Positions 7,292-16,476 of a DNA stretch of 64,000 nucleotides are shown here, piece after piece. Positions within the stretch are counted from its first letter, which is position 1; the number at the start of each line of letters is the position of its first letter. Source of the stretch: Pseudomonadota bacterium (lineage in GTDB: Bacteria; Myxococcota_A; UBA796; GCA-2862545). Location: positions 62,001 to 126,000 of the forward strand of contig CANNIZ010000001.1 in the NCBI GenBank assembly GCA_947505245.1. Reading direction: 5' to 3'. Below the pieces are notes generated by a model. It was not told the DNA's origin. It saw only the letters and a list, made by a program, of their open reading frames with translations, and searched no databases. The position numbers were made by a program, and so were the translations under genes.

Positions 7292-8476
7292 ATGTCGCAA
7301 CTTCGCCCCGCCGTCTTCCTCGCCACCACGGGCCTGCTCACCGCCTGCCCGCCCGGCGGCGACTCCGGCGAGACAGACACGAACACCGGCACCCCCGGTC
7401 CGGCCCTCGTGGCGCTCGCCGCGGGCGGGAATTCCACCTGCGCCGTGCTCGCGGACGGCACCGCGCGGTGCTGGGGCGACAACCGCGTCGGCCAGCTGGG
7501 TGACGGCACCACCACCTCGAGCGTCACGCCGGTCGCGGTCTCGGGTCTCTCCGACGCGATCGCCATCTCCACCGGCTACGAATTCTCGTGCGCCATCCAC
7601 TCCGGCGGCAGCGTGTCGTGCTGGGGTGCGGGCGGCAACGGCCACCTCGGGAACGGCGCCTCGAACGACTCGTCCGTACCTGTGGACGTGACGGGGCTCA
7701 CCGGAGCGGTCGAGATCCGCGTCGGCTTCACCACCGCGTGCGCGCTGCGCGACGACGGCACCGTGTGGTGCTGGGGCCGCGGCGGCGAGCTCGGAAACAG
7801 CACCGACACGAACGACTCGAACGTCCCCGTCCAGGTCCCCGGGCTCACCAACGTCGAGCACCTCGCGGGCGCCAGCCACGGCGGCACCTCGATGAGCTCG
7901 CACACCTGCGGCGTCCGCACGGACGGCTCCGCGTTCTGCTGGGGCCTGAATTCGGACGGCCAGAACGGCGACGGCACGCAGGACAGCGAGCGCAGCCCGG
8001 TCGAGGTGAGCGGCATCGACGACGCCACCGCGATCGCCGCGGGCATGACACACGCGTGCGCCGTCCGCCCCGGTGGAACGGAGTGTTGGGGCGCCAGCCA
8101 GCTCGTCGGGGACGGCACCGTGGAGCGGCGGTTTACGCCCGTACCGATCGCGTCCACGGTCGCGTTCGTGGAGCTGACGGCCGGCTTCGAGCACACCTGC
8201 GGCCGAACCGACGCGGGTGACCTTTGGTGCTGGGGCCGCAACGGCGGCGGGCAGATCGGAGACGCCCAGGAGCTCACGACGAGCGACGTGCGGCTCGAGC
8301 CCGTGAAGGCCGCGGTCTCGGGGATTCAGCTCGTCGCGGCCGGCATGACGCACACCTGCGCCACCGACGACAACGACGTGACGTGGTGCTGGGGCCGCAA
8401 CGAGTACGGCGAGATCGGCTCGGGAACGCCGGGTTCGAGCGCGCGTTCCAGCGTCCCCGCCGCGGTCGTGTGGTAG
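7292..8476 (+). CDS. RCC1-repeat beta-propeller lipoprotein
   Basis: ATG 7292 follows GGAGG. The 394-residue product has a lipoprotein signal with lipobox LLTAC and a short Glu/Thr/Asp linker. It then has about seven RCC1-like blades with the recurring pattern CAV..DGTARCWGDN..GQLGDGTT (CWG occurs in every blade). RCC1 propellers serve as binding platforms in many surface proteins of Myxococcota. It lacks a MYXO-CTERM tail, so anchoring is by lipid. Its 3' end is 13 bp from the convergent DUF2063 gene. The ligand is unknown. Confidence 0.85.
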   Translation: MSQLRPAVFLATTGLLTACPPGGDSGETDTNTGTPGPALVALAAGGNSTCAVLADGTARCWGDNRVGQLGDGTTTSSVTPVAVSGLSDAIAISTGYEFSCAIHSGGSVSCWGAGGNGHLGNGASNDSSVPVDVTGLTGAVEIRVGFTTACALRDDGTVWCWGRGGELGNSTDTNDSNVPVQVPGLTNVEHLAGASHGGTSMSSHTCGVRTDGSAFCWGLNSDGQNGDGTQDSERSPVEVSGIDDATAIAAGMTHACAVRPGGTECWGASQLVGDGTVERRFTPVPIASTVAFVELTAGFEHTCGRTDAGDLWCWGRNGGGQIGDAQELTTSDVRLEPVKAAVSGIQLVAAGMTHTCATDDNDVTWCWGRNEYGEIGSGTPGSSARSSVPAAVVW

Positions 8477-8489
8477 TCCGCCGCCCCCG

Positions 8490-9230
8490 TCAGGGCGCGA
8501 TCTGAACCAGGCCTCGCTCGACGAACGACGCGAACCACGCCGACAACCGGCCCGCGGCGCGCTCCGGCTCGGCCGCGACGGCGGCGGTCACCGCGTCCGC
8601 GAGGGTGCCTCCCCGGGCGACCACCCCGAGCGCGGCAAACGCGCCGGGCTCGAGCTCCACGTGGCGCATCGCGCGGTCCACCCGGTACACGGCGACGAGG
8701 AACGTCCCGGCCACCACGGCGGGCTGCGCGCCGCCAAGGCTCCACACCGAGCGCGTGCGCTGGACCGAGGTGGTGAGCGCGAGCAGCTGGACGTGCGGCT
8801 GCAGCGCGAGCCTGAGTGAGCCGGTGAGGGCGTCCGCAAGCTGCTCCGGGCGGGGCGTCTGCCCGTCCGCCCCGAGGAACCCGCTCATCACAGCGTGATC
8901 AAGCCGCGCCATCTCGCTGTGCTCCACCGGCGCGCCGTGCGACGCGAGCCAGTCGGCGAAGCCGTCGGCGATCCGCCCGAGCGACCAGTGGCCGGGCGGG
9001 TGTGCGTCGAGGAACGCCCACACCACAGCCTCCCCAGCGTCCCCGGCCAGGGCGAGGTAGCCGGGAACCTCCTCGGCGAACGCGTCCCACAGGCGCAGCC
9101 GATACTGCTCGGCGTAGATGGCGATCTGCTCCTCACCGGTCAACGTCGCGCTGCCCGCGAACAGGTCGCCCGACAGCGGCTTAGCACCGCGGATCATCGC
9201 CACCATCTCGGCCTGCCACGTCGGGTTCAT
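8490..9230 (-). CDS. DUF2063-family partner protein of an MNIO RiPP enzyme (HvfC/BufC/MbnC-like)
   Basis: The 246-residue product begins MNPTWQAEMV at ATG 9230, overlapping the stop of the upstream DUF692 gene by 4 nt (ATGA). The N-terminal half has the DUF2063 pattern (EQIAIYAEQYRLRLWDAFAEEVPGYLALAGD, FLDAHPPGHWSLGRIADGFADWL). DUF2063 proteins are the obligate partners that present the precursor leader to MNIO enzymes in the HvfABC, bufferin and related systems. The C-terminal ~100 residues are a more variable partner domain. Gene order precursor-MNIO-DUF2063 on one strand supports this role. In-frame sequence upstream of ATG 9230 is inside the DUF692 gene and is not used. Confidence 0.85.
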   Translation of the reverse strand: MNPTWQAEMVAMIRGAKPLSGDLFAGSATLTGEEQIAIYAEQYRLRLWDAFAEEVPGYLALAGDAGEAVVWAFLDAHPPGHWSLGRIADGFADWLASHGAPVEHSEMARLDHAVMSGFLGADGQTPRPEQLADALTGSLRLALQPHVQLLALTTSVQRTRSVWSLGGAQPAVVAGTFLVAVYRVDRAMRHVELEPGAFAALGVVARGGTLADAVTAAVAAEPERAAGRLSAWFASFVERGLVQIAP

Positions 9231-10054
9231 GCGAGGGCCTCTGCGCGCAACCGCCGCGCCAGGGCCGCCTCTTCCTGCAGCCGCGCGAACGAGGGGAGCT
9301 GGTCGTCCCATTCGATCAGGGTGCTCACGCTCCCGATGCGGTGGATCACCCGCTGGTACAGCGCCCACACCTCGTCGCACACGGGCCCGTCGTGGGTGTC
9401 CAGTCGGTACTTCGCCTTCACCGAGTGCCCGGCGAGGTGGATTTGAACCACGCGATCAGCGGGCACCGCGTCCAGGTACGTGTGCGCGTCAAACCCGTGA
9501 TTCATCGCGCTCACGTACACGTTGTTCACGTCGAGCAACACGCCGCAGTCCGCGCGCTCCACCACGTCCGCGAGGAACTCCCACTCGGGCATCACGCTCG
9601 CCTTGTACGTGAGGTACGACGACGCGTTCTCGATCGCGAACGGCCGCCCCAGCGTGTCCTGGACGCGCTTCACGCGCTCGACGACGTGATCCGCCATGGC
9701 CCGCGTGTACGGCAGCGGCAGCAGATCGTGCACGCGGACGTCCGCCGTGCCCGTGAAACACAGGTGGTCCGACACCCACGGCGCGTCGAGCCGGTCCGCG
9801 AGCCGCTTCAGCCGCGCGAGGTGGTCCGCGTCATGGGCGCCCCCGAGCGACAGGCCCACGCCATGCGGCACGACGGGGTACTGCGCGCGCAGCCGGTCGA
9901 GGAAGTACAGCGGCGAGCCGCCGTCCACCATGAAGTTCTCGGCGATGACCTCGAACCAATCCATCGCGGGACGGCCTTCGACGACCTCGGCGAAGTGCGG
10001 CCGGCGAAATCCGACCCCGATGCCGAGGTCCGGGACGTGAAAGCGAGACACCAT
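9227..10054 (-). CDS. MNIO (DUF692) multinuclear iron peptide-modifying enzyme, HvfB/BufB-like
   Basis: The 275-residue product is a full-length DUF692 TIM-barrel enzyme. It has FEVIAENFMV near the start, H64, SDHLCF (H97), PFAIENASSYL (E142), LLDVNNVYVSAMNHGFD (D175, H186) and IHLAGH (H206, H210) then DTHDGPV (D219, H221, D222). These His, Asp and Glu positions match the metal-ligand pattern of multinuclear non-heme iron oxidative enzymes. Known members convert Cys of RiPP precursors to oxazolone-thioamide or thiooxazole groups that bind copper. The substrate here is probably the Cys-rich protein encoded 51 bp upstream. It overlaps the DUF2063 gene by 4 nt. The exact chemistry cannot be read from sequence. 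Confidence 0.9.
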   Translation of the reverse strand: MVSRFHVPDLGIGVGFRRPHFAEVVEGRPAMDWFEVIAENFMVDGGSPLYFLDRLRAQYPVVPHGVGLSLGGAHDADHLARLKRLADRLDAPWVSDHLCFTGTADVRVHDLLPLPYTRAMADHVVERVKRVQDTLGRPFAIENASSYLTYKASVMPEWEFLADVVERADCGVLLDVNNVYVSAMNHGFDAHTYLDAVPADRVVQIHLAGHSVKAKYRLDTHDGPVCDEVWALYQRVIHRIGSVSTLIEWDDQLPSFARLQEEAALARRLRAEALA

Positions 10055-10105
10055 GACGCGCCTGTAACCGCTGCGTCCCGTTGGGGGCGCTCACGGCCAC
10101 CACGA

Positions 10106-10432
10106 CTACATCGAGGACTTGCAGCCGCCCTTGCCCTTGCAGCTGTTCTTTCCCTTGCAGCCGCCGTCGCCGCTGCCACAGCCGCCCTGGCCCTTGCACT
10201 CGTTCAGGCCCTTGCACTCGTGCGCAGCAGGCGCGGCAGCCTGGACCCCCTCGGTGGCAGCGGGCGTCGCAGCGGCGGGGTCCGCCGGGGTTGCAGCCGG
10301 GGTTGCAGCCGGCGACACGACAGCGGCAGGCTCCGTGGGAGTCGCCTCACCACCACCACACGCCGTGAGCGAACCCGCGAACAAACCCGCCAAAGCCGTA
10401 CCGACCAGCGCGGCCTTCGTGTCAACCGTCAT
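10106..10432 (-). CDS. Cys-rich lipoprotein RiPP precursor (HvfA/bufferin-like)
   Basis: This 108-residue product starts at ATG 10432, with GGAGGT a few bases upstream. It has a signal peptide ending in lipobox LTAC (Cys25), an Ala/Pro/Thr linker (residues 30-70) and a Gly/Lys-rich core. Six Cys sit at residues 73, 79, 85, 92, 98 and 104, spaced 6-6-7-6-6, in motifs ECKG, NECKGQGGC and NSCKGKGGC. Such repeats, directly before DUF692 and DUF2063 genes, mark a secreted RiPP whose Cys are modified to bind copper or another metal. The lipobox suggests it stays attached to the cell envelope, unlike soluble bufferins. The 73 bp upstream contain an ACGTACGT palindrome (10489-10496) and a weak promoter-like pair, TTGTAG, 18 bp, TAGGCT. 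Confidence 0.85.
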   Translation of the reverse strand: MTVDTKAALVGTALAGLFAGSLTACGGGEATPTEPAAVVSPAATPAATPADPAAATPAATEGVQAAAPAAHECKGLNECKGQGGCGSGDGGCKGKNSCKGKGGCKSSM

Positions 10433-10505
10433 CGATTACCTCCAGAGTGGGCAATAGCCTACTCCCTGGAGCTCGTCTCCTACAACTGACGTACGTTACA
10501 GCGGC

Positions 10506-11120
10506 CTAACGAACGGCCTTCACGTCTTCGGGGAGCACGATCCCATCGGCGTTGCCCCACGAGTTGCGCTCGAACGTCAACGCGCAGGCGAGGTCGTAGT
10601 CCGAGAGGGCGGCCTGGGAAGGCATCGCGCCGTTGTAGTCGACGCCCTGGACGTTGATTGGACCGGAGAGGCCCTTCACCGCGATGGTCGCGTGGTTCTT
10701 CGCGTCTCCGTAGAACGCCCCCGAGCCTGCCAGCGGGGGGAACGTGCCGGGGATTCCCTTGCCTTCGGCGCCGTGGCACGCGCCGCAGACCTTGCCGTAC
10801 ACGTCTGCGCCGTGCGCCATGAGCGACGCCTGATCGGTCTTGGTCTCGTCCACCGTCGCTTCGACAACTGCTGGGAACGCCGACTTGGGCGGCGTGTACT
10901 TGACCTTCACCACCGGGGAAGCGCAGTAGCGGTAGCCCGTCACGAAGCTCGTCAGGTAGCTCGGGCAGTTCCCCGAGACGCGGTTCGAGTACTGCGCGCT
11001 GATCTCCACCGCGTCGTGTTCGAACGGCCGGTTGCACGCGACCGCCGCGGCCAACAGCAGCGCAGGGAGCGCGACACGGGCGCTCGATGCGAGGGACTTG
11101 GAGCCAAACAAGGTAGGCAT
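10506..11120 (-). CDS. Mono-heme cytochrome c lipoprotein
   Basis: The start is ATG 11120 (MPTLFGSKSL); the longer frame upstream runs antisense to another gene. The 204-residue product has a lipoprotein signal (LLLAAAVAC, Cys about 31). A periplasmic domain carries one heme c motif, VCGACHG, and a downstream candidate Met ligand in NGAMPSQ. It has a segment with extra Cys pairs (GNCPSY, YRYCASP) before the heme domain. It lies 82 bp downstream of the cytochrome oxidase operon on the same strand and is likely an electron carrier to that oxidase. The start is only 28 bp from a divergent small membrane protein gene. Confidence 0.82.
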   Translation of the reverse strand: MPTLFGSKSLASSARVALPALLLAAAVACNRPFEHDAVEISAQYSNRVSGNCPSYLTSFVTGYRYCASPVVKVKYTPPKSAFPAVVEATVDETKTDQASLMAHGADVYGKVCGACHGAEGKGIPGTFPPLAGSGAFYGDAKNHATIAVKGLSGPINVQGVDYNGAMPSQAALSDYDLACALTFERNSWGNADGIVLPEDVKAVR

Positions 11121-11148
11121 GGGGCCTCGGAGTCGATAGGAGTCGGGG

Positions 11149-11328
11149 ATGGATTGGTTGCGCAGCCACCGCGCTCTGGTAGCTATCATCGTCGGCACCA
11201 CGCTAGCCGGAGCCCTCGGGGGTGCCTTGTTCTTCGGCGAATGGAGCCTGGCCCGTCGCATGGCCGCCGGCGCTGTGTTGGGCGCTGGCTCCGCGCTCAT
11301 ACTCACCGCCAATCGGCTGATTGCGTAG
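11149..11328 (+). CDS. Small two-helix membrane protein (59 aa), antisense to the end of the oxidase operon
   Basis: ATG 11149 follows AGGAG (11138-11142) with 6-nt spacing. The frame reads MDWLRSHRAL then two hydrophobic helices (residues about 9-30 and 38-56) and ends NRLIA at TAG 11328. The protein has positive-inside charges at the N-terminus and in the loop (LARRM), typical of a real membrane protein. It is divergent from the cytochrome c gene (28 bp apart). Its last 126 bp overlap, on the opposite strand, the low-complexity 3' end of the 11203-11502 gene. The function is unknown. Both frames look plausible, so the overlap may be genuine. Confidence 0.55.
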   Translation: MDWLRSHRALVAIIVGTTLAGALGGALFFGEWSLARRMAAGAVLGAGSALILTANRLIA

Positions 11329-11502
11329 CGGCTGTTTGACGGAGGCCTGCGAGAGAATTTCACTCCGCACGTAAAGCACCACGAGCCCGATGAACGTGAG
11401 CGGCAGCAGCGACAGGAACACCGTCGTGCCCGCGTACGCCGTGCGCGCCGCAGGTGAGACCGCGCCACAAACGGAACAGGCGAGCTCGATCGCGGGGATC
11501 AC
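11203..11502 (-). CDS. Small CxxC membrane protein at end of cytochrome oxidase operon
   Basis: GTG 11502 overlaps the stop of the subunit III-like gene by 4 nt. The 99-residue product has an N-terminal CSVCG motif (residues 9-13) and one or two hydrophobic segments (residues about 25-47). It ends in a polar tail rich in Gly, Gln and Glu that looks unstructured. Small proteins with a CxxC and a helix are often seen at the end of heme-copper oxidase operons, where a metal or assembly role has been suggested; no specific family is recognised. The coupling to the operon supports expression. The tail region is antisense to a small plus-strand gene. Confidence 0.6.
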   Translation of the reverse strand: MIPAIELACSVCGAVSPAARTAYAGTTVFLSLLPLTFIGLVVLYVRSEILSQASVKQPLRNQPIGGEYERGASAQHSAGGHATGQAPFAEEQGTPEGSG

Positions 11503-12089
11503 AGGTACACCCGCCAGTAAAGGACGGGCCACAGCGCCACCACGAAGTACCAGTACAGGCGCCCGGCCTGGAAGGCCTCGCGCCGGAGCGTGTTTCGACC
11601 CAGCCGAGCCACCATCCACACCACCGCGCCCAGGCCCACCAGCGCGTGCAACGCGTGCGCGCCGACGATCAGGTAGAAGAAGCCACCGTACGGCGTCGCG
11701 CGGAACGACAGGCCGTCGGCCAACAGCCGGGCCCATTCGACGCCCTGGAACACGACAAAGAACGTGCCGGCGGCGAGCGAGCCCAACAGCGCCTTGAACG
11801 ACGTGTCGACCTTGCCGTCGTCGTAGAGCCGGCCGGCGTACCGCATCGCTACGCCGCTCCCCAGCAACACCAGCGTGTTGAACGCCGTCGATTCGAGGGG
11901 CAACACGGGCTGGCCGGGAGGTGGCCACTCGACCATGTTCGCCCGACCGATCGCGTGGGCGCTGATGAACGCGGCGAACATCATCAGCTCGGCGCCGACG
12001 AACAGGAGCACCGCGAGCACGGCGTTCGGCACTGCGGGCTGCCGCTCTTCGCGTGCGACCGGCAGGTCAGGGCTGCCCACCGCCATCAT
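11499..12089 (-). CDS. Heme-copper oxidase subunit III family protein (second copy)
   Basis: The 196-residue product has five membrane helices and the subunit III pattern: LFVGAELMMFAAFISAHAIGR, FNTLVLLGSGVAMRYA, FVVFQGVEWARLL, YLIVGAHALHALVGLGAVVWM and WYFVVALWPVLYWRVYL. It is related to, but clearly different from, the subunit III gene at 12541. Such a second short subunit III is common in caa3-type clusters of Myxococcota. ATG 12089 overlaps the subunit IV stop by one base (TGATG). It acts in the inner membrane as part of the terminal oxidase. Confidence 0.85.
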   Translation of the reverse strand: MMAVGSPDLPVAREERQPAVPNAVLAVLLFVGAELMMFAAFISAHAIGRANMVEWPPPGQPVLPLESTAFNTLVLLGSGVAMRYAGRLYDDGKVDTSFKALLGSLAAGTFFVVFQGVEWARLLADGLSFRATPYGGFFYLIVGAHALHALVGLGAVVWMVARLGRNTLRREAFQAGRLYWYFVVALWPVLYWRVYL

Positions 12090-12532
12090 CAGTGGACCTC
12101 GGCGGCCGGTGCGGGCTCGTGCTCGCCCCCGCCGTGCTCGGCGCCAGCCGCGAGACCGCGCGCCACCTCGGCCTTGGCAGCGACGTTCTCCCAGCGCGTG
12201 CCCTCGTGCTTCATCACGTCAGGCGACACGGCAGCGAAGAACAACACCATGAACACCACGCTGGTGATCAGCGCGTACCAGATGATCGGCTTCTCGGTGT
12301 CCAGGTGCATGAAGTACTTGATCACGATGCCGGCCTTCACGAACGCGATGCCGAACGCCGTGATCAGCGTGATGATCTTGATCCCGAGCATCGGGCCCGT
12401 GACCGACACGACGAGCAAGACACAAAGCACCCCCCAGATCTTCACGTAATGCGAAGGCGGGTGGATGTGCTCGTGGTGACCGCCGCCGGCGCCGTGGTCA
12501 TGACCGTGATCGTGAGTCGCTTCCGCAGACAT
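12089..12532 (-). CDS. ctaF: Cytochrome c oxidase subunit IV
   Basis: The start is put at ATG 12532, because an AGGA ribosome site stands about 7 nt before it; ATG 12538 is only one or two bases from that site. The 147-residue product has a His-rich N-terminus (HDHGHDHGAGGGHHEHIHP) that could bind metal. Three helices follow with the bacterial subunit IV motif VKAGIVIKYFMHL. The C-terminus has an extra soluble tail rich in Glu, Ala and His (about 40 residues). Subunit IV stabilises subunits I to III. It lies 8 nt after the subunit III stop and is coupled to the next gene by one base. Confidence 0.85.
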   Translation of the reverse strand: MSAEATHDHGHDHGAGGGHHEHIHPPSHYVKIWGVLCVLLVVSVTGPMLGIKIITLITAFGIAFVKAGIVIKYFMHLDTEKPIIWYALITSVVFMVLFFAAVSPDVMKHEGTRWENVAAKAEVARGLAAGAEHGGGEHEPAPAAEVH

Positions 12533-12540
12533 GGGCATTC

Positions 12541-13119
12541 CTACTTGGCGATGTAGAGGAGGGGGAACAGAAAGATCCAGACAAGGTCGACGAAGTGCCA
12601 GTAGAGGCCTACGTTTTCGACCCGGTGCAAGTCGCGGCCAGCGTACGCGTCCTTCGCGACGAACGCCATGATGATGGCGCCGACGATGACGTGGCTCGCG
12701 TGAATGCCGGCGGCCGTGTAGTAGAACGCCCAGAAGCCGTTCGTCCAGGGCACGAAGCCTTCTTCGATCTCGCCGTGCCACTCGTAAGCTTTGAAGCAAA
12801 GGAACAGGCAGGCGCCAGCGATGGTGGCGAGCAGAAACTTCGCAGCCTTCTTGCCGTCACCGGTCTGCGCCGCCTGGTGCGCGAGCACCGCCGTGAGGCT
12901 CGACGACAACAGCACGAGCGTGTTCGTGGCGCCGATCGCGGTCTGCGTGTGGACCGCATAATTGGCCCATTCCGGGTGACCGAGGCGATGCATCAGGTAG
13001 GAAGCGAGCACGCCGCCGAAGATGACGATCTCCGACACGAGCAGCCACCACACGGCCAGCTTGGCCGTGGGGATGCCCGTTGCGCTGCGCGTATTTGCGA
13101 TTGGACGAAAGGCTGCCAT
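12541..13119 (-). CDS. ctaE: Cytochrome c oxidase subunit III
   Basis: The 192-residue, five-helix protein has the classical short subunit III pattern: LAVWWLLVSEIVIFGGVLASYLM, NTLVLLSSSLTAVLA, LFLCFKAYEWHGEIEEG, YYTAAGIHASHVIVGAIIM and GLYWHFVDLVWIFLFPLLYI. The last block (YWHFVD, WIFLFP) is diagnostic. It lacks the first two helices of long subunit III proteins, as usual in bacterial caa3/ba-type enzymes. It begins 9 nt after the subunit I stop. It is an integral part of the oxidase and helps sustain proton uptake. Confidence 0.93.
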   Translation of the reverse strand: MAAFRPIANTRSATGIPTAKLAVWWLLVSEIVIFGGVLASYLMHRLGHPEWANYAVHTQTAIGATNTLVLLSSSLTAVLAHQAAQTGDGKKAAKFLLATIAGACLFLCFKAYEWHGEIEEGFVPWTNGFWAFYYTAAGIHASHVIVGAIIMAFVAKDAYAGRDLHRVENVGLYWHFVDLVWIFLFPLLYIAK

Positions 13120-13128
13120 GGGTGATTC

Positions 13129-14841
13129 CTACGACTGCTGGTTCTGGGGCCAGAAGTCGTCTTCACGACCCGGCACCGAGTATTCGTACGGGCCCCGGTA
13201 CACCGTGGGCATGTTGTCGGGAGGCCAGTTTCCGTGGCCAGGCGGGTTCTCGGGCGTCGTCCACTCGAGGGTGGTCGCCTTCCACGGGTTCGTACCCGAG
13301 ATCGGCCCGAAGAACATGCTGTAGAACGTGTTGTAGATGAAGATGAACTGGAACGCGATCAGCACCAGCAGAGCGACCGTGGCGAGGATGCGCAGGTTCT
13401 GCAGGTCCGGCGTCGCGAGCTCGGGGAAGTTGTTGTAGTTGTAGATGCGGCGGTGATCGCCACCGAGGCCCGTCGCGAACAGCGGAAGGAAGATGAAGTT
13501 GAACGAGATCATCGTGCCGAAGAAGTGAATCTTCCCGAGCGTCTCGTTCATCATCCGGCCGAACATCTTCGGGAACCAGTACGTGAACCCGGTGAACGTC
13601 CCGATGAACGCGATCGGGAAGAACGTGTAGTGGAAGTGCGCGACCACGAAGTACGTGTCGTGGAAGTAGATGTCCGCGCCCGACGCGCCCAGGTAGATGC
13701 CCGTCACGCCGCCGATGAGGAAGGCGAAGATGAAGCCGAGCGCCCACAACATCGGCACCGTGTAGCGGATCGAACCGCCGTACAGCGTCGCGATGTAGAG
13801 GAACACCATCTCCGCGATGGGGATCGAGATGAGCACGGTGGTGATGGTGAACACGTTCGCCATGCGCGGATCGATACCGGCGACGAACTGGTGATGCGCC
13901 CACACGAAGAACGAGAGCACGCCCGTGCCGATCGTCGTGTACAAGACGGTGTCGTAGGCGAACAGCTTCTTGCGCGCGAACACCGGGATGACCTCGGCGC
14001 ACATGCCCGTGGCAGGCAGCAGCACGACGTACACTTCCGGGTGACCGAAGAACCAGAACAGGTGCTGCCAGAGGATCGGGTCACCGCCCCGGCGGGGATC
14101 GAAGAAGTTCGTACCGAGGTTCTGGTCGAACAGCAGCATGATCGCGCCCGCGACGAGCGGACCGACCGACGCCATGAACAGGATGGACGCGATGCAGATC
14201 ATCCATACGATCATTGGAACGTCGTTCCACTTCATGCCCGGCGCGCGGCCGTTCATGGCGGTGACGATGAAGTTGATGCCGCCGAGCAGGAACGCCGCGA
14301 ACTCGAGCGCGACAGCGATCAGCCACATCGACGAGCCCATCGGGGTCAGGCTGTACCGCGCGTCGGCAGAGAGCGGCGGGTAGGCCGTCCAGGCGCCGCC
14401 GAACGCGCCGCCTGGGACGAACCAGGACGCGATGAGGACGACGGCCGACACGAGGAATATCTGGTACGAAAGCCGGTTCAGGCGCGGAAACGCCATGTCG
14501 TCCGCGCCGATCAGCAGCGGGATCAGGAAATTGCCGAACGCCGCGATCAACACGGGCATGGCGACCCAGAAGATCATGACGGTGCCGTGCTGCGTGATGG
14601 CCGCGTTGTACTCCATCGGCGACACGCGGCCGAAGAACGGCACGCTCATGTTCGGGAACGCGAGCTGCATCCGGAACACATACGCGTAGAAGCCACCGAA
14701 CAACGCCATGAACATACCGGTAAACATGTACTGTTTGCCGATGTATTTGTGGTCCGTCGGGAAGATGTACTTCTCGATGAACGACATCTCGTGGTGGTGG
14801 GCGTCGTGCGCGCCGTGGTCGTGATCGTGAGCGACGGACAT
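13129..14841 (-). CDS. ctaD: Cytochrome c oxidase subunit I
   Basis: The 570-residue catalytic subunit carries all heme-copper ligands: HGTVMIFW (heme a), WFFGHPEVYVVLLPATG (CuB His and the cross-linked Tyr), WAHHQF (CuB His pair) and VAHFHYT (heme a3/heme a His). It has 12 or more helices. ATG 14841 is chosen because AGGA lies 7 nt before it; ATG 14847 sits right on the ribosome site. The N-terminus is His-rich (HDHDHGAHDAHHHEM). It reduces O2 to water and pumps protons in the inner membrane. Upstream in the operon, 170 bp separate it from ctaC, filled mainly by a 40-bp tandem repeat. Confidence 0.96.
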   Translation of the reverse strand: MSVAHDHDHGAHDAHHHEMSFIEKYIFPTDHKYIGKQYMFTGMFMALFGGFYAYVFRMQLAFPNMSVPFFGRVSPMEYNAAITQHGTVMIFWVAMPVLIAAFGNFLIPLLIGADDMAFPRLNRLSYQIFLVSAVVLIASWFVPGGAFGGAWTAYPPLSADARYSLTPMGSSMWLIAVALEFAAFLLGGINFIVTAMNGRAPGMKWNDVPMIVWMICIASILFMASVGPLVAGAIMLLFDQNLGTNFFDPRRGGDPILWQHLFWFFGHPEVYVVLLPATGMCAEVIPVFARKKLFAYDTVLYTTIGTGVLSFFVWAHHQFVAGIDPRMANVFTITTVLISIPIAEMVFLYIATLYGGSIRYTVPMLWALGFIFAFLIGGVTGIYLGASGADIYFHDTYFVVAHFHYTFFPIAFIGTFTGFTYWFPKMFGRMMNETLGKIHFFGTMISFNFIFLPLFATGLGGDHRRIYNYNNFPELATPDLQNLRILATVALLVLIAFQFIFIYNTFYSMFFGPISGTNPWKATTLEWTTPENPPGHGNWPPDNMPTVYRGPYEYSVPGREDDFWPQNQQS

Positions 14842-14860
14842 CAGCATTCCTGGGCAAGCG

Positions 14861-15000
14861 AAGCGCGCAGCGAGCGCAGCGAGCGTAGTGTCTTGGAGCG
14901 AAGCGCGCAGCGAGCGCAGCGAGCGTAGTGTCTTGGAGCGAAGCGCGCAGCGAGCGCAGCGAGCGTAGTGTCTTGGAGCGAGGCGCGCAGCGAGCGCAGC
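14861..15000. repeat. 40-bp tandem repeat inside the cytochrome oxidase operon (3.5 copies)
   Basis: Units at 14861-14900, 14901-14940 and 14941-14980 are identical. A half unit follows at 14981-15000 with one change (aggcgcg for aagcgcg). Each unit starts aagcgcgcagcgagcgcagc and ends tcttggagcg, and is internally repetitive (gcagcgagc). It fills the ctaC-ctaD gap of an otherwise tightly packed operon. No ORF is needed to explain it. It could form GC-rich structure in the mRNA between ctaC and ctaD. Confidence 0.9.
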
Positions 15001-15011
15001 CGAGCGAAGCG

Positions 15012-15677
15012 TTATTTGGGCGTGTTTGCCGTGATCCAGGCGAGATGATCTTCGTCGGACTCGACGTAGATGCGTCCCGCCATCAGGCCGTGGCCGATGC
15101 CGCACATCTCGGCGCACTGCAGGTCATAGACGCCCGCCTGGGTCGCCTCGAACCACGCCGTGATTACGCGCCCGGGGACGATGTCCTGCTTCAGGCGGAA
15201 CACCGGGATCGAGAAGTTGTGCAGCACGTCCCGCGACTCGAGCTTGGCGTGGACGACCTTGTTGACGGGTACGTGCAGGCCGTCGACCGTCTTGATGTCG
15301 TCCGCGGTGTCGAGGATGCCGTCTGCACCGGGGTGCTGAAAGCTCCACGCCCACTGCTGGCCGACGACGCGAACGACCTCTTGCGGCTCCGGAAGGTTCT
15401 GTTTGACGTTGTACCAGACCTTGATGGCGCCGACGATGACGAACAGGTCCATGAAGATGATGAGGTAGTGGGGGTACGTGATCCACCGGAGCAGCTCTGG
15501 CTCGTGACCCGTCACGTACAGGGCCTTGACGCCTTCCTGAGCGCGGTACCGCCACAGCAACCAGAAGAACATCACGTTCGTCGCCAGGTACCAGAACCCG
15601 ACGATCGCCGTGATCATCATCACGAGGTTGTCGACGTCGCTTGCGAACGTGGAAAGAGCGGGCTGAAACAGATTCAT
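15012..15677 (-). CDS. ctaC: Cytochrome c oxidase subunit II (CuA protein)
   Basis: The 221-residue product has two N-terminal helices (about residues 14-42 and 70-90) and a cupredoxin domain. The CuA site is complete: DVLHNFSIP for the first His, then CAEMCGIGHGLM for the two Cys, the Glu, the second His and the Met. VGQQWAWSFQHP is the conserved aromatic electron-entry patch. It has no fused cytochrome c domain; separate cytochrome c lipoproteins lie at both ends of the cluster. ATG 15677 is 7 nt after the stop of the 38-codon gene. It accepts electrons from cytochrome c at the periplasmic face. Confidence 0.95.
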   Translation of the reverse strand: MNLFQPALSTFASDVDNLVMMITAIVGFWYLATNVMFFWLLWRYRAQEGVKALYVTGHEPELLRWITYPHYLIIFMDLFVIVGAIKVWYNVKQNLPEPQEVVRVVGQQWAWSFQHPGADGILDTADDIKTVDGLHVPVNKVVHAKLESRDVLHNFSIPVFRLKQDIVPGRVITAWFEATQAGVYDLQCAEMCGIGHGLMAGRIYVESDEDHLAWITANTPK

Positions 15678-15684
15678 TTCGAGC

Positions 15685-15801
15685 TCACGACATGAACGCG
15701 ACGATGAACGCCGCCGAGATGAACAACAACGATCCCACCATGGTCACGATGAACACCTTCTTCGCGATCGCCTCTCCGGCATCGGACTGCGCTTCGGACA
15801 T
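15685..15801 (-). CDS. 38-residue single-helix protein in the oxidase operon
   Basis: ATG 15801 follows AGGA with about 8-nt spacing, 9 nt after the stop of the diheme cytochrome gene. Its stop lies 7 nt before ctaC. The product reads MSEAQSDAGEAIAKK followed by one hydrophobic helix (residues about 16-37) and ends AFMS. Its tight position and clean topology support a real gene. It may be a small accessory subunit or assembly factor of the oxidase; no family is recognised at this length. Confidence 0.6.
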   Translation of the reverse strand: MSEAQSDAGEAIAKKVFIVTMVGSLLFISAAFIVAFMS

Positions 15802-15810
15802 GTTGTCTTC

Positions 15811-16476
15811 CTACTTGCCGAGGGTCTGGATGTGGGCGATCACGTTGTTGATCGCGTCTTCGTCTGCCAGCGTGCGGGCCATCGGCGCCATCGTGGCGCC
15901 CGTCTTGTCGAGCGGATTCGCTCCGCGCACGCCATCCTTGAACTTGTGGATCTGCCTGGCGAGGTACCAATCCTGCTGCTTGGTGAGCGGCGGCGCCCCC
16001 AGCGCCTCGGAGCCGGTGCCATCCGCCTGGTGACACGCGCTGCAGACCCCGAACGACACCTTGCCCTTTTCGGCGTCTCCCTTCAGCGTCGGCGCAGGCC
16101 GTGCTGCAGGCAGCGCTGCGATGTAGCCGGCGACGGCCGCGATCTGGCCATCCGTCTGCAGCGCGGCCGCCATCGGCCGCATGCGCAGGCCTTCGATGTC
16201 ATCGAAGTGCGCGCCCCGGGCGCCATCGCGAAACTTGTGTACTTCGGCGGTGATGTACCAGGCGGGCAGGCTCGCGATGGACGGCGCCCCGATGTTCTCC
16301 TGACCGGCCGCGTTCGCGCCGTGGCAAGGAGCACAATAATCCTCGAACAACGCCAGCCCCTCGTCAGGGCTGCCGGCCGCCGGTGTAGACATACACGACG
16401 TGAGCGACGCCCCGATCGCGGCGATCGCCGCTACCAATAGGATCGCACCACCGTGACTCGTCACGTCAACCCGCAT
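15811..16476 (-). CDS. Diheme cytochrome c lipoprotein
   Basis: The 221-residue product has a lipoprotein signal (SLTSC, Cys about 28) and two tandem cytochrome c domains with heme motifs CAPCHGA and CSACHQA. Each is followed by a matching HKFRDGARG / HKFKDGVRG segment and a Met-containing MRPMA / MAPMA ligand region. This internal duplication resembles cytochrome c4-type proteins. ATG 16476 has GGGGGAGG just upstream. It is the first gene of the oxidase operon and probably delivers electrons to the CuA centre. It would sit on the outer face of the inner membrane or be exported to the outer membrane; the sequence does not decide. Confidence 0.88.
   Translation of the reverse strand: MRVDVTSHGGAILLVAAIAAIGASLTSCMSTPAAGSPDEGLALFEDYCAPCHGANAAGQENIGAPSIASLPAWYITAEVHKFRDGARGAHFDDIEGLRMRPMAAALQTDGQIAAVAGYIAALPAARPAPTLKGDAEKGKVSFGVCSACHQADGTGSEALGAPPLTKQQDWYLARQIHKFKDGVRGANPLDKTGATMAPMARTLADEDAINNVIAHIQTLGK

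Follow-up and report, generated by a model that had tools for sequence, protein, structure and literature searches.

Based on gene order, family assignments, structure models and a comparison with related genomes, we propose that three neighbouring genes in the window (the whole 64,000-nucleotide stretch of DNA analysed here) probably form a bufferin-2-like RiPP operon of a myxobacterial subtype, which by analogy would yield a lipid-anchored periplasmic copper buffer with a thiooxazole core. The locus displays the gene order and protein families of such a system, intact catalytic residues in the maturase and a lipobox pattern in the precursor, and the subtype is conserved. A RiPP metallophore cassette with HvfABC/bufferin logic had been suggested in a preliminary description of this DNA, and this assignment is supported by a maturase that exceeds the BufB cut-off, by the DUF2063 partner and by the BufA2 match of the precursor.

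Gene order, maturase and partner protein

ORF calling identifies a bufABC-like trio of precursor, MNIO enzyme and DUF2063 partner, read in that order, on the minus strand (Table 1), where three same-strand genes had been described before. The bufA-like and bufB-like genes are separated by 51 bp, and the bufB-like and bufC-like genes overlap by 4 bp. Bufferin clusters are recognised by the order precursor-MNIO-DUF2063 and by a partner of PME type 1, and both features are present here. As the same order of equivalents is found again in dozens of related genomes, and no other family is found next to them nearly as often, the trio is not a chance arrangement.

Table 1 Features of the bufABC-like locus and its flanks, in window coordinates.
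Feature	Coordinates	Strand	Basis
RCC1-repeat, lipoprotein-like gene	7292..8476	+	
bufC-like DUF2063 partner (PME type 1), 246 aa, ATG start at 9230	8490..9230	-	PF09836, structure model
bufB-like MNIO maturase, 275 aa	9227..10054	-	NF050167, PF05114, structure model
bufA-like precursor, 108 aa	10106..10432	-	ORF; NF050166 Cu_RiPP_BufA2, E 3.3e-10, 40 bits (<60)
Core, residues 73-104: two CKGxNxCKGxGGC units, six Cys	10121..10216	-	Sequence
Ala/Pro/Thr-rich linker, residues 26-72 (47 residues), no Lys/Arg	10217..10357	-	Sequence composition
Lipoprotein signal peptide, residues 1-25, lipobox L22-T23-A24-C25, +2 Gly	10358..10432	-	Pattern and hydrophobicity test
73-bp gap between oxidase operon and precursor; weak sigma70-like TTGTAG-N18-TAGGCT	10433..10505	-	Read from sequence; below scanner threshold
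Oxidase operon	10506..16476	-	

The maturase is a full MNIO (DUF692) enzyme, as described earlier, matching PF05114 over its full length with 353 bits (cut-off 25). It passes the NF050167 MNIO_BufB model with 361.3 bits (cut-off 310) and falls short of the HvfB (243 bits, cut-off 360) and MbnB (52.8 bits, cut-off 325) models; those of ApyH and ChrH are not passed either. The AlphaFold2 model is a confident TIM barrel (pLDDT 94), the closest folds of which, according to a fold search, are 3BWW, iron-bound TglH and MbnB, and the corresponding catalytic motifs can be aligned with those of 3BWW. In a 74-row alignment, no substitution occurs at H64, E142, N143, D175, N177, H206, D219, E248 or D250, and conservation reaches at least 99% at H97 and H221, with most of the conserved catalytic residues located at or just past the ends of the barrel strands in the model. 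Since the candidate metal ligands, read from this alignment, are thus invariant or nearly so, the loss of ligands on structural modelling, which the preliminary description had named as an argument against its proposal, is not observed.

We note that D250 occupies the alignment position of the proposed catalytic base. The position that follows the catalytic Asp is Phe in Lys-Cys maturases, which act on EGKCG substrates, and Asp in Cys-Lys maturases such as BufB2 (PMC13097082); D251 aligns with the latter Asp and corresponds to FonB Phe250. More than half of the members of the wider clade have Ala or Gly there instead, and a contact to the substrate Lys is therefore not a rule there.

The earlier assignment of the third gene to DUF2063 holds, with 35.1 bits against PF09836 (cut-off 27.2). 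A sequence search with this partner against the PDB returned nothing useful; its AlphaFold2 model (pLDDT 94) has TglI and NGO1945/3DEE as the closest folds in the fold search, the latter being the prototype MNIO partner, which combines DUF2063 with an RRE-type domain (PMC12452194).

The host genome (5.5 Mb, 94.6% complete) contains a single MNIO gene and a single BufA2-type precursor. The assembly is a draft in 139 contigs, which leaves some room for a decaying locus, or for unmodified cysteines in a plain Cys-rich lipoprotein next to an inactive enzyme. We consider this highly improbable, however, as the catalytic residues are invariant, the genes are tightly spaced, the only MNIO gene of the genome is intact, and both core and signal peptide are conserved in relatives.

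A lipidated, repeat-type precursor

The precursor has cysteines at positions 25 (lipobox), 73, 79, 85, 92, 98 and 104, and from Cys 73 to Cys 104 the 6-6-7-6-6 spacing given in the preliminary description is matched exactly. The BufA2 match covers residues 50-102 and profile positions 15-62 of 79, and remains under the curated equivalog cut-off of NF050166. Six conserved core cysteines are present, in agreement with the six (or twelve) of Buf2. The canonical C-terminal segment of BufA2, in which the sixth Cys lies 8-18 residues past the fifth, is absent from the precursor, where this residue is found at +6 in CKGKGGC. Judged from its sequence, the protein is best named a lipidated, repeat-type relative of BufA2. 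The ECKG/GGC motifs and the lipobox had initially been taken as a departure from bufferins, a view that does not stand: CKG motifs with six cysteines distinguish bufferin 2 (Buf_6/12Cys; the 'Cys-Lys' class, PMC13097082), EGKCG being the mark of the oxazolin/HvfA class, and lipoprotein signals have already been predicted in about 16% of Buf2 in the work describing the Buf1 and Buf2 bufferins and their clusters (PMC12452194). Such signals have also been noted in subsets of bufferins and oxazolins (PMC12636315).

The lipobox proposed earlier is recovered as LTA-C25 after a hydrophobic stretch, detection being based on sequence pattern and hydrophobicity, and the same analysis yields a Sec-type export signal of the lipoprotein type. 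Membrane tethering of the precursor, raised as a possibility before, is accordingly supported as probable by the lipobox pattern. The linker is of the Ala/Pro/Thr type described (96% A/P/T/E/V/G/S/D), yet spans the 47 residues between C25 and C73 rather than about 40. By eye, a stretch ALAGLxAGxLxAC recurs in lipidated close relatives whereas the sequence of the linker differs; for this reason a double role of the signal stretch, as export signal and as recognition leader for the RRE, would fit. At the +2 position, Gly is present in 11 of 16 lipidated relatives and Lys in none. Because Lys is often found at +2 in inner-membrane lipoproteins of M. xanthus (PMC3222651), the default sorting to the outer membrane appears likelier, with the reservation that the +2 rule is that of M. 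xanthus and may not be that of this host. Extracellular sorting via Ala at +7 (PMC3222651) is not claimed, as the window precursor has Thr at this position.

Close relatives of the maturase with a name are mostly from Myxococcales/Myxococcota assemblies, the best being 61-66% identical. MNIO enzymes are present in 42 of 58 related genomes, and a BufA2-type precursor in 72 of the 284 genomes sampled from the phylum. The precursors fall into two cleanly separated core types. The canonical core comprises C-x5-C-x5-C, then C-x5-C, with the last Cys 8-18 residues further on (GKGW...ECxxKGG), and in most cases follows a plain signal peptide; the repeat-type core, to which the window precursor belongs, is built from two or four CKGxNxCKGxGGC units. 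In a 74-row maturase tree, every repeat-type locus is placed in one branch (support 100/97) that includes no canonical locus. For eight rows of this branch no precursor was classified; two of these rows have cytochrome-fused variants. Of the 26 repeat-type precursors that could be assessed, 22 have a lipobox, as compared to 8 of 32 canonical ones (Fisher p 6e-6, a value that ignores relatedness and is based on core-type and lipobox labels assigned by hand from precursor lists). Hence, in the repeat-type clade a predicted lipobox with a linker is usually the rule.

Several variants were encountered among the relatives. Two class-level relatives, L115 (about 1155-1870) and L114 (about 1224-1915), have repeat-type precursors with at least 12 Cys and twin-arginine-like signals (MNRREFNKLMLAAAGG... 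and MNRRDFNKMMLAAASG..., respectively), which suggests that a bufferin-type peptide is exported there via Tat instead of Sec; in L115 the MNIO gene adjoins the precursor. Next to MNIO genes in L052 and L069, on the minus strand in both, are lipoprotein-like proteins that combine Asp/Thr-rich stretches and bufferin-like CxGxNSCKG/CxGxNxC motifs with a C-terminal CxxCH cytochrome c-like domain, and that by their motif content are bufferin-like/cytochrome fusions. The precursors of L030, L045 and L051 hold eight Cys in total, an additional Cys pair (GGCCTHKDRTQCPS-type) being located past the core, and L031 and L033 have two six-Cys cores per lipoprotein, with neighbouring Cys 31-42 residues apart over an Ala-rich spacer. 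Three Cys-Lys precursors are present in L009 (Methylophaga), two with and one without a lipobox.

Genomic surroundings and the question of function

The oxidase operon upstream on the same strand encodes a cytochrome c, COX2, COX1, COX3, COX4_pro, another COX3 and a cytochrome c lipoprotein, so that both subunit III, in two distinct versions, and cytochrome c are encoded twice. With its end only 73 bp before the precursor gene, read-through transcription is possible, and the modified lipopeptide could be imagined as a chaperone that supplies or stores copper for the adjacent cytochrome oxidase, instead of a detoxifying buffer. The adjacency reported in the preliminary description is real, but it is not conserved: an oxidase lies beside bufABC in none of 31 related-genome loci of at least 4 kb (several of them cut by contig ends), and among the named loci a subunit III gene (COX3) is near bufABC only in one planctomycete (L023). 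Moreover, six same-family genomes keep COX3 orthologues, 68-74% identical, on contigs other than that of bufABC, which makes the oxidase a weak pointer to function, and the adjacency was rejected as functional evidence. Since, in addition, characterised bufferins act in copper tolerance (PMC12452194), a role as an oxidase chaperone is quite unlikely.

Across the related loci no neighbours recur beyond bufABC, save for regional synteny in six same-family genomes. Menaquinone (futalosine-type)-like genes precede bufABC by 2-6 kb, in the same orientation, in L058, L059, L060, L064, L066 and L067, a neighbourhood that probably reflects regional synteny. In the window, the RCC1-repeat gene is convergent on the end of bufC.

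Neither a copper regulator nor a copper-export gene recurs near the related loci. The lack of a recurring copper-specific neighbour would agree with a role of the modified core towards a different soft metal or in redox stress (zinc, mercury, gold, hypochlorite) instead of copper, as would the MerC fusions of some bufferins and their links to mercury loci (PMC12452194). Nevertheless, where thiooxazole peptides of this enzyme group have been characterised, they are linked to copper (PMC13097082, PMC12452194), and we regard the alternative as unlikely.

The promoter scanner detected none in the 73-bp gap, and no supported regulatory element was found at the locus. A 15-bp imperfect dyad that overlaps with the ribosome-binding site just ahead of the precursor gene was dropped as unsupported, its RNA fold not being unusual (z -1.09). 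In a crude search, only 1 of 13 relatives had a strong dyad at the corresponding position; this search missed the imperfect dyad of the window itself and failed its shuffle control.

Proposed pathway and relation to known systems

From characterised relatives, we infer thiooxazole formation, copper binding, lipidation, location and function of the window precursor, as follows. In the cytoplasm, the DUF2063/RRE partner would present the precursor to the MNIO enzyme, which would convert the CKG-type cysteines to 5-thiooxazoles by four-electron oxidation. For Buf2 this modification is known indirectly, through the same mass loss per Cys and a band at 305 nm (PMC12452194). The modified precursor would then be exported by Sec as a prolipoprotein, acylated at C25 and cleaved, and, with Gly and not Lys at +2, most likely be delivered to the outer membrane. 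There, the flexible Ala/Pro linker would keep the six-Cys metal-binding core off the membrane, in the periplasm, where it is predicted to buffer excess copper. That an MNIO-modified precursor can enter the lipoprotein pathway has precedent in DybA, which is lipidated in this manner in E. coli (PMC12636315).

A more far-reaching interpretation, which we put forward only tentatively, is that of a permanently lipid-anchored and modular myxobacterial thiooxazole subclass with its own maturase clade, assembled from 13-residue CKGxNxCKGxGGC units in sets of two or four, that would act as a surface or vesicle copper sponge as opposed to a soluble periplasmic buffer. The anchor would then probably be in the outer membrane, and the peptide perhaps shed in vesicles or shared between cells. 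Thiooxazole copper buffering as wider biology is already known; what bufferins gain is a coherent subtype that is predicted to be lipid-tethered and is built from repeats, with an enzyme clade to match. The subtype could also serve as a compact system to show whether one and the same bufferin peptide is both lipid-anchored and modified in its core, and where in the envelope such copper buffers work.

Among known systems, methanobactin (MbnABC) shares the MNIO fold and the copper-peptide logic; it has, however, a leader-type precursor without export signal and MbnC as the partner, and the window maturase fails the MbnB model. The RiPP-lipoprotein hybrids DybA and NedA (PMC12636315) have in common with our locus a lipobox on an MNIO-modified precursor, but DybA belongs to the ChrH type (CPACGMG motif, macrocycle) and NedA has a CxxxxC motif, both unlike the window precursor. 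In the searchable full-text literature we found no described bufferin from Myxococcota, the myxobacterial passages of PMC12636315, the single paper returned, relating to the ChrH group, and the repeat-type myxobacterial clade may lie inside published bufferin similarity networks. The Lys-Cys, Cys-Lys and DUF2282 classes have been united as 5-thiooxazole captophorins (PMC13097082). Of these, the Lys-Cys captophorins with EGKCG motifs (oxazolin/HvfABC, fontiphorin, gonophorin) share an MNIO enzyme with a DUF2063 partner, a Cys-rich precursor and the link to copper; compared to oxazolin/HvfABC, the window precursor is without EGKCG repeats, and the maturase is below the HvfB cut-off and has Asp251 where Lys-Cys maturases have Phe. 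Agreement is closest with bufferin 2 (BufA2B2C2; NF050166/NF050167; Cys-Lys captophorins), which shares the gene order, an MNIO enzyme over the BufB cut-off, the DUF2063-RRE partner, six Cys with CKGxNxCKG motifs and an export signal. In bufferin 2 the second half ends in CKGxGW(8-18)C, whereas in the window precursor it ends in CKGxGGC; the locus differs further by a precursor under the BufA2 cut-off, a lipobox with a 47-residue linker and a maturase in its own myxobacterial clade. It is thus most likely a lineage-specific version of the described bufferin family and not a new kind of system.
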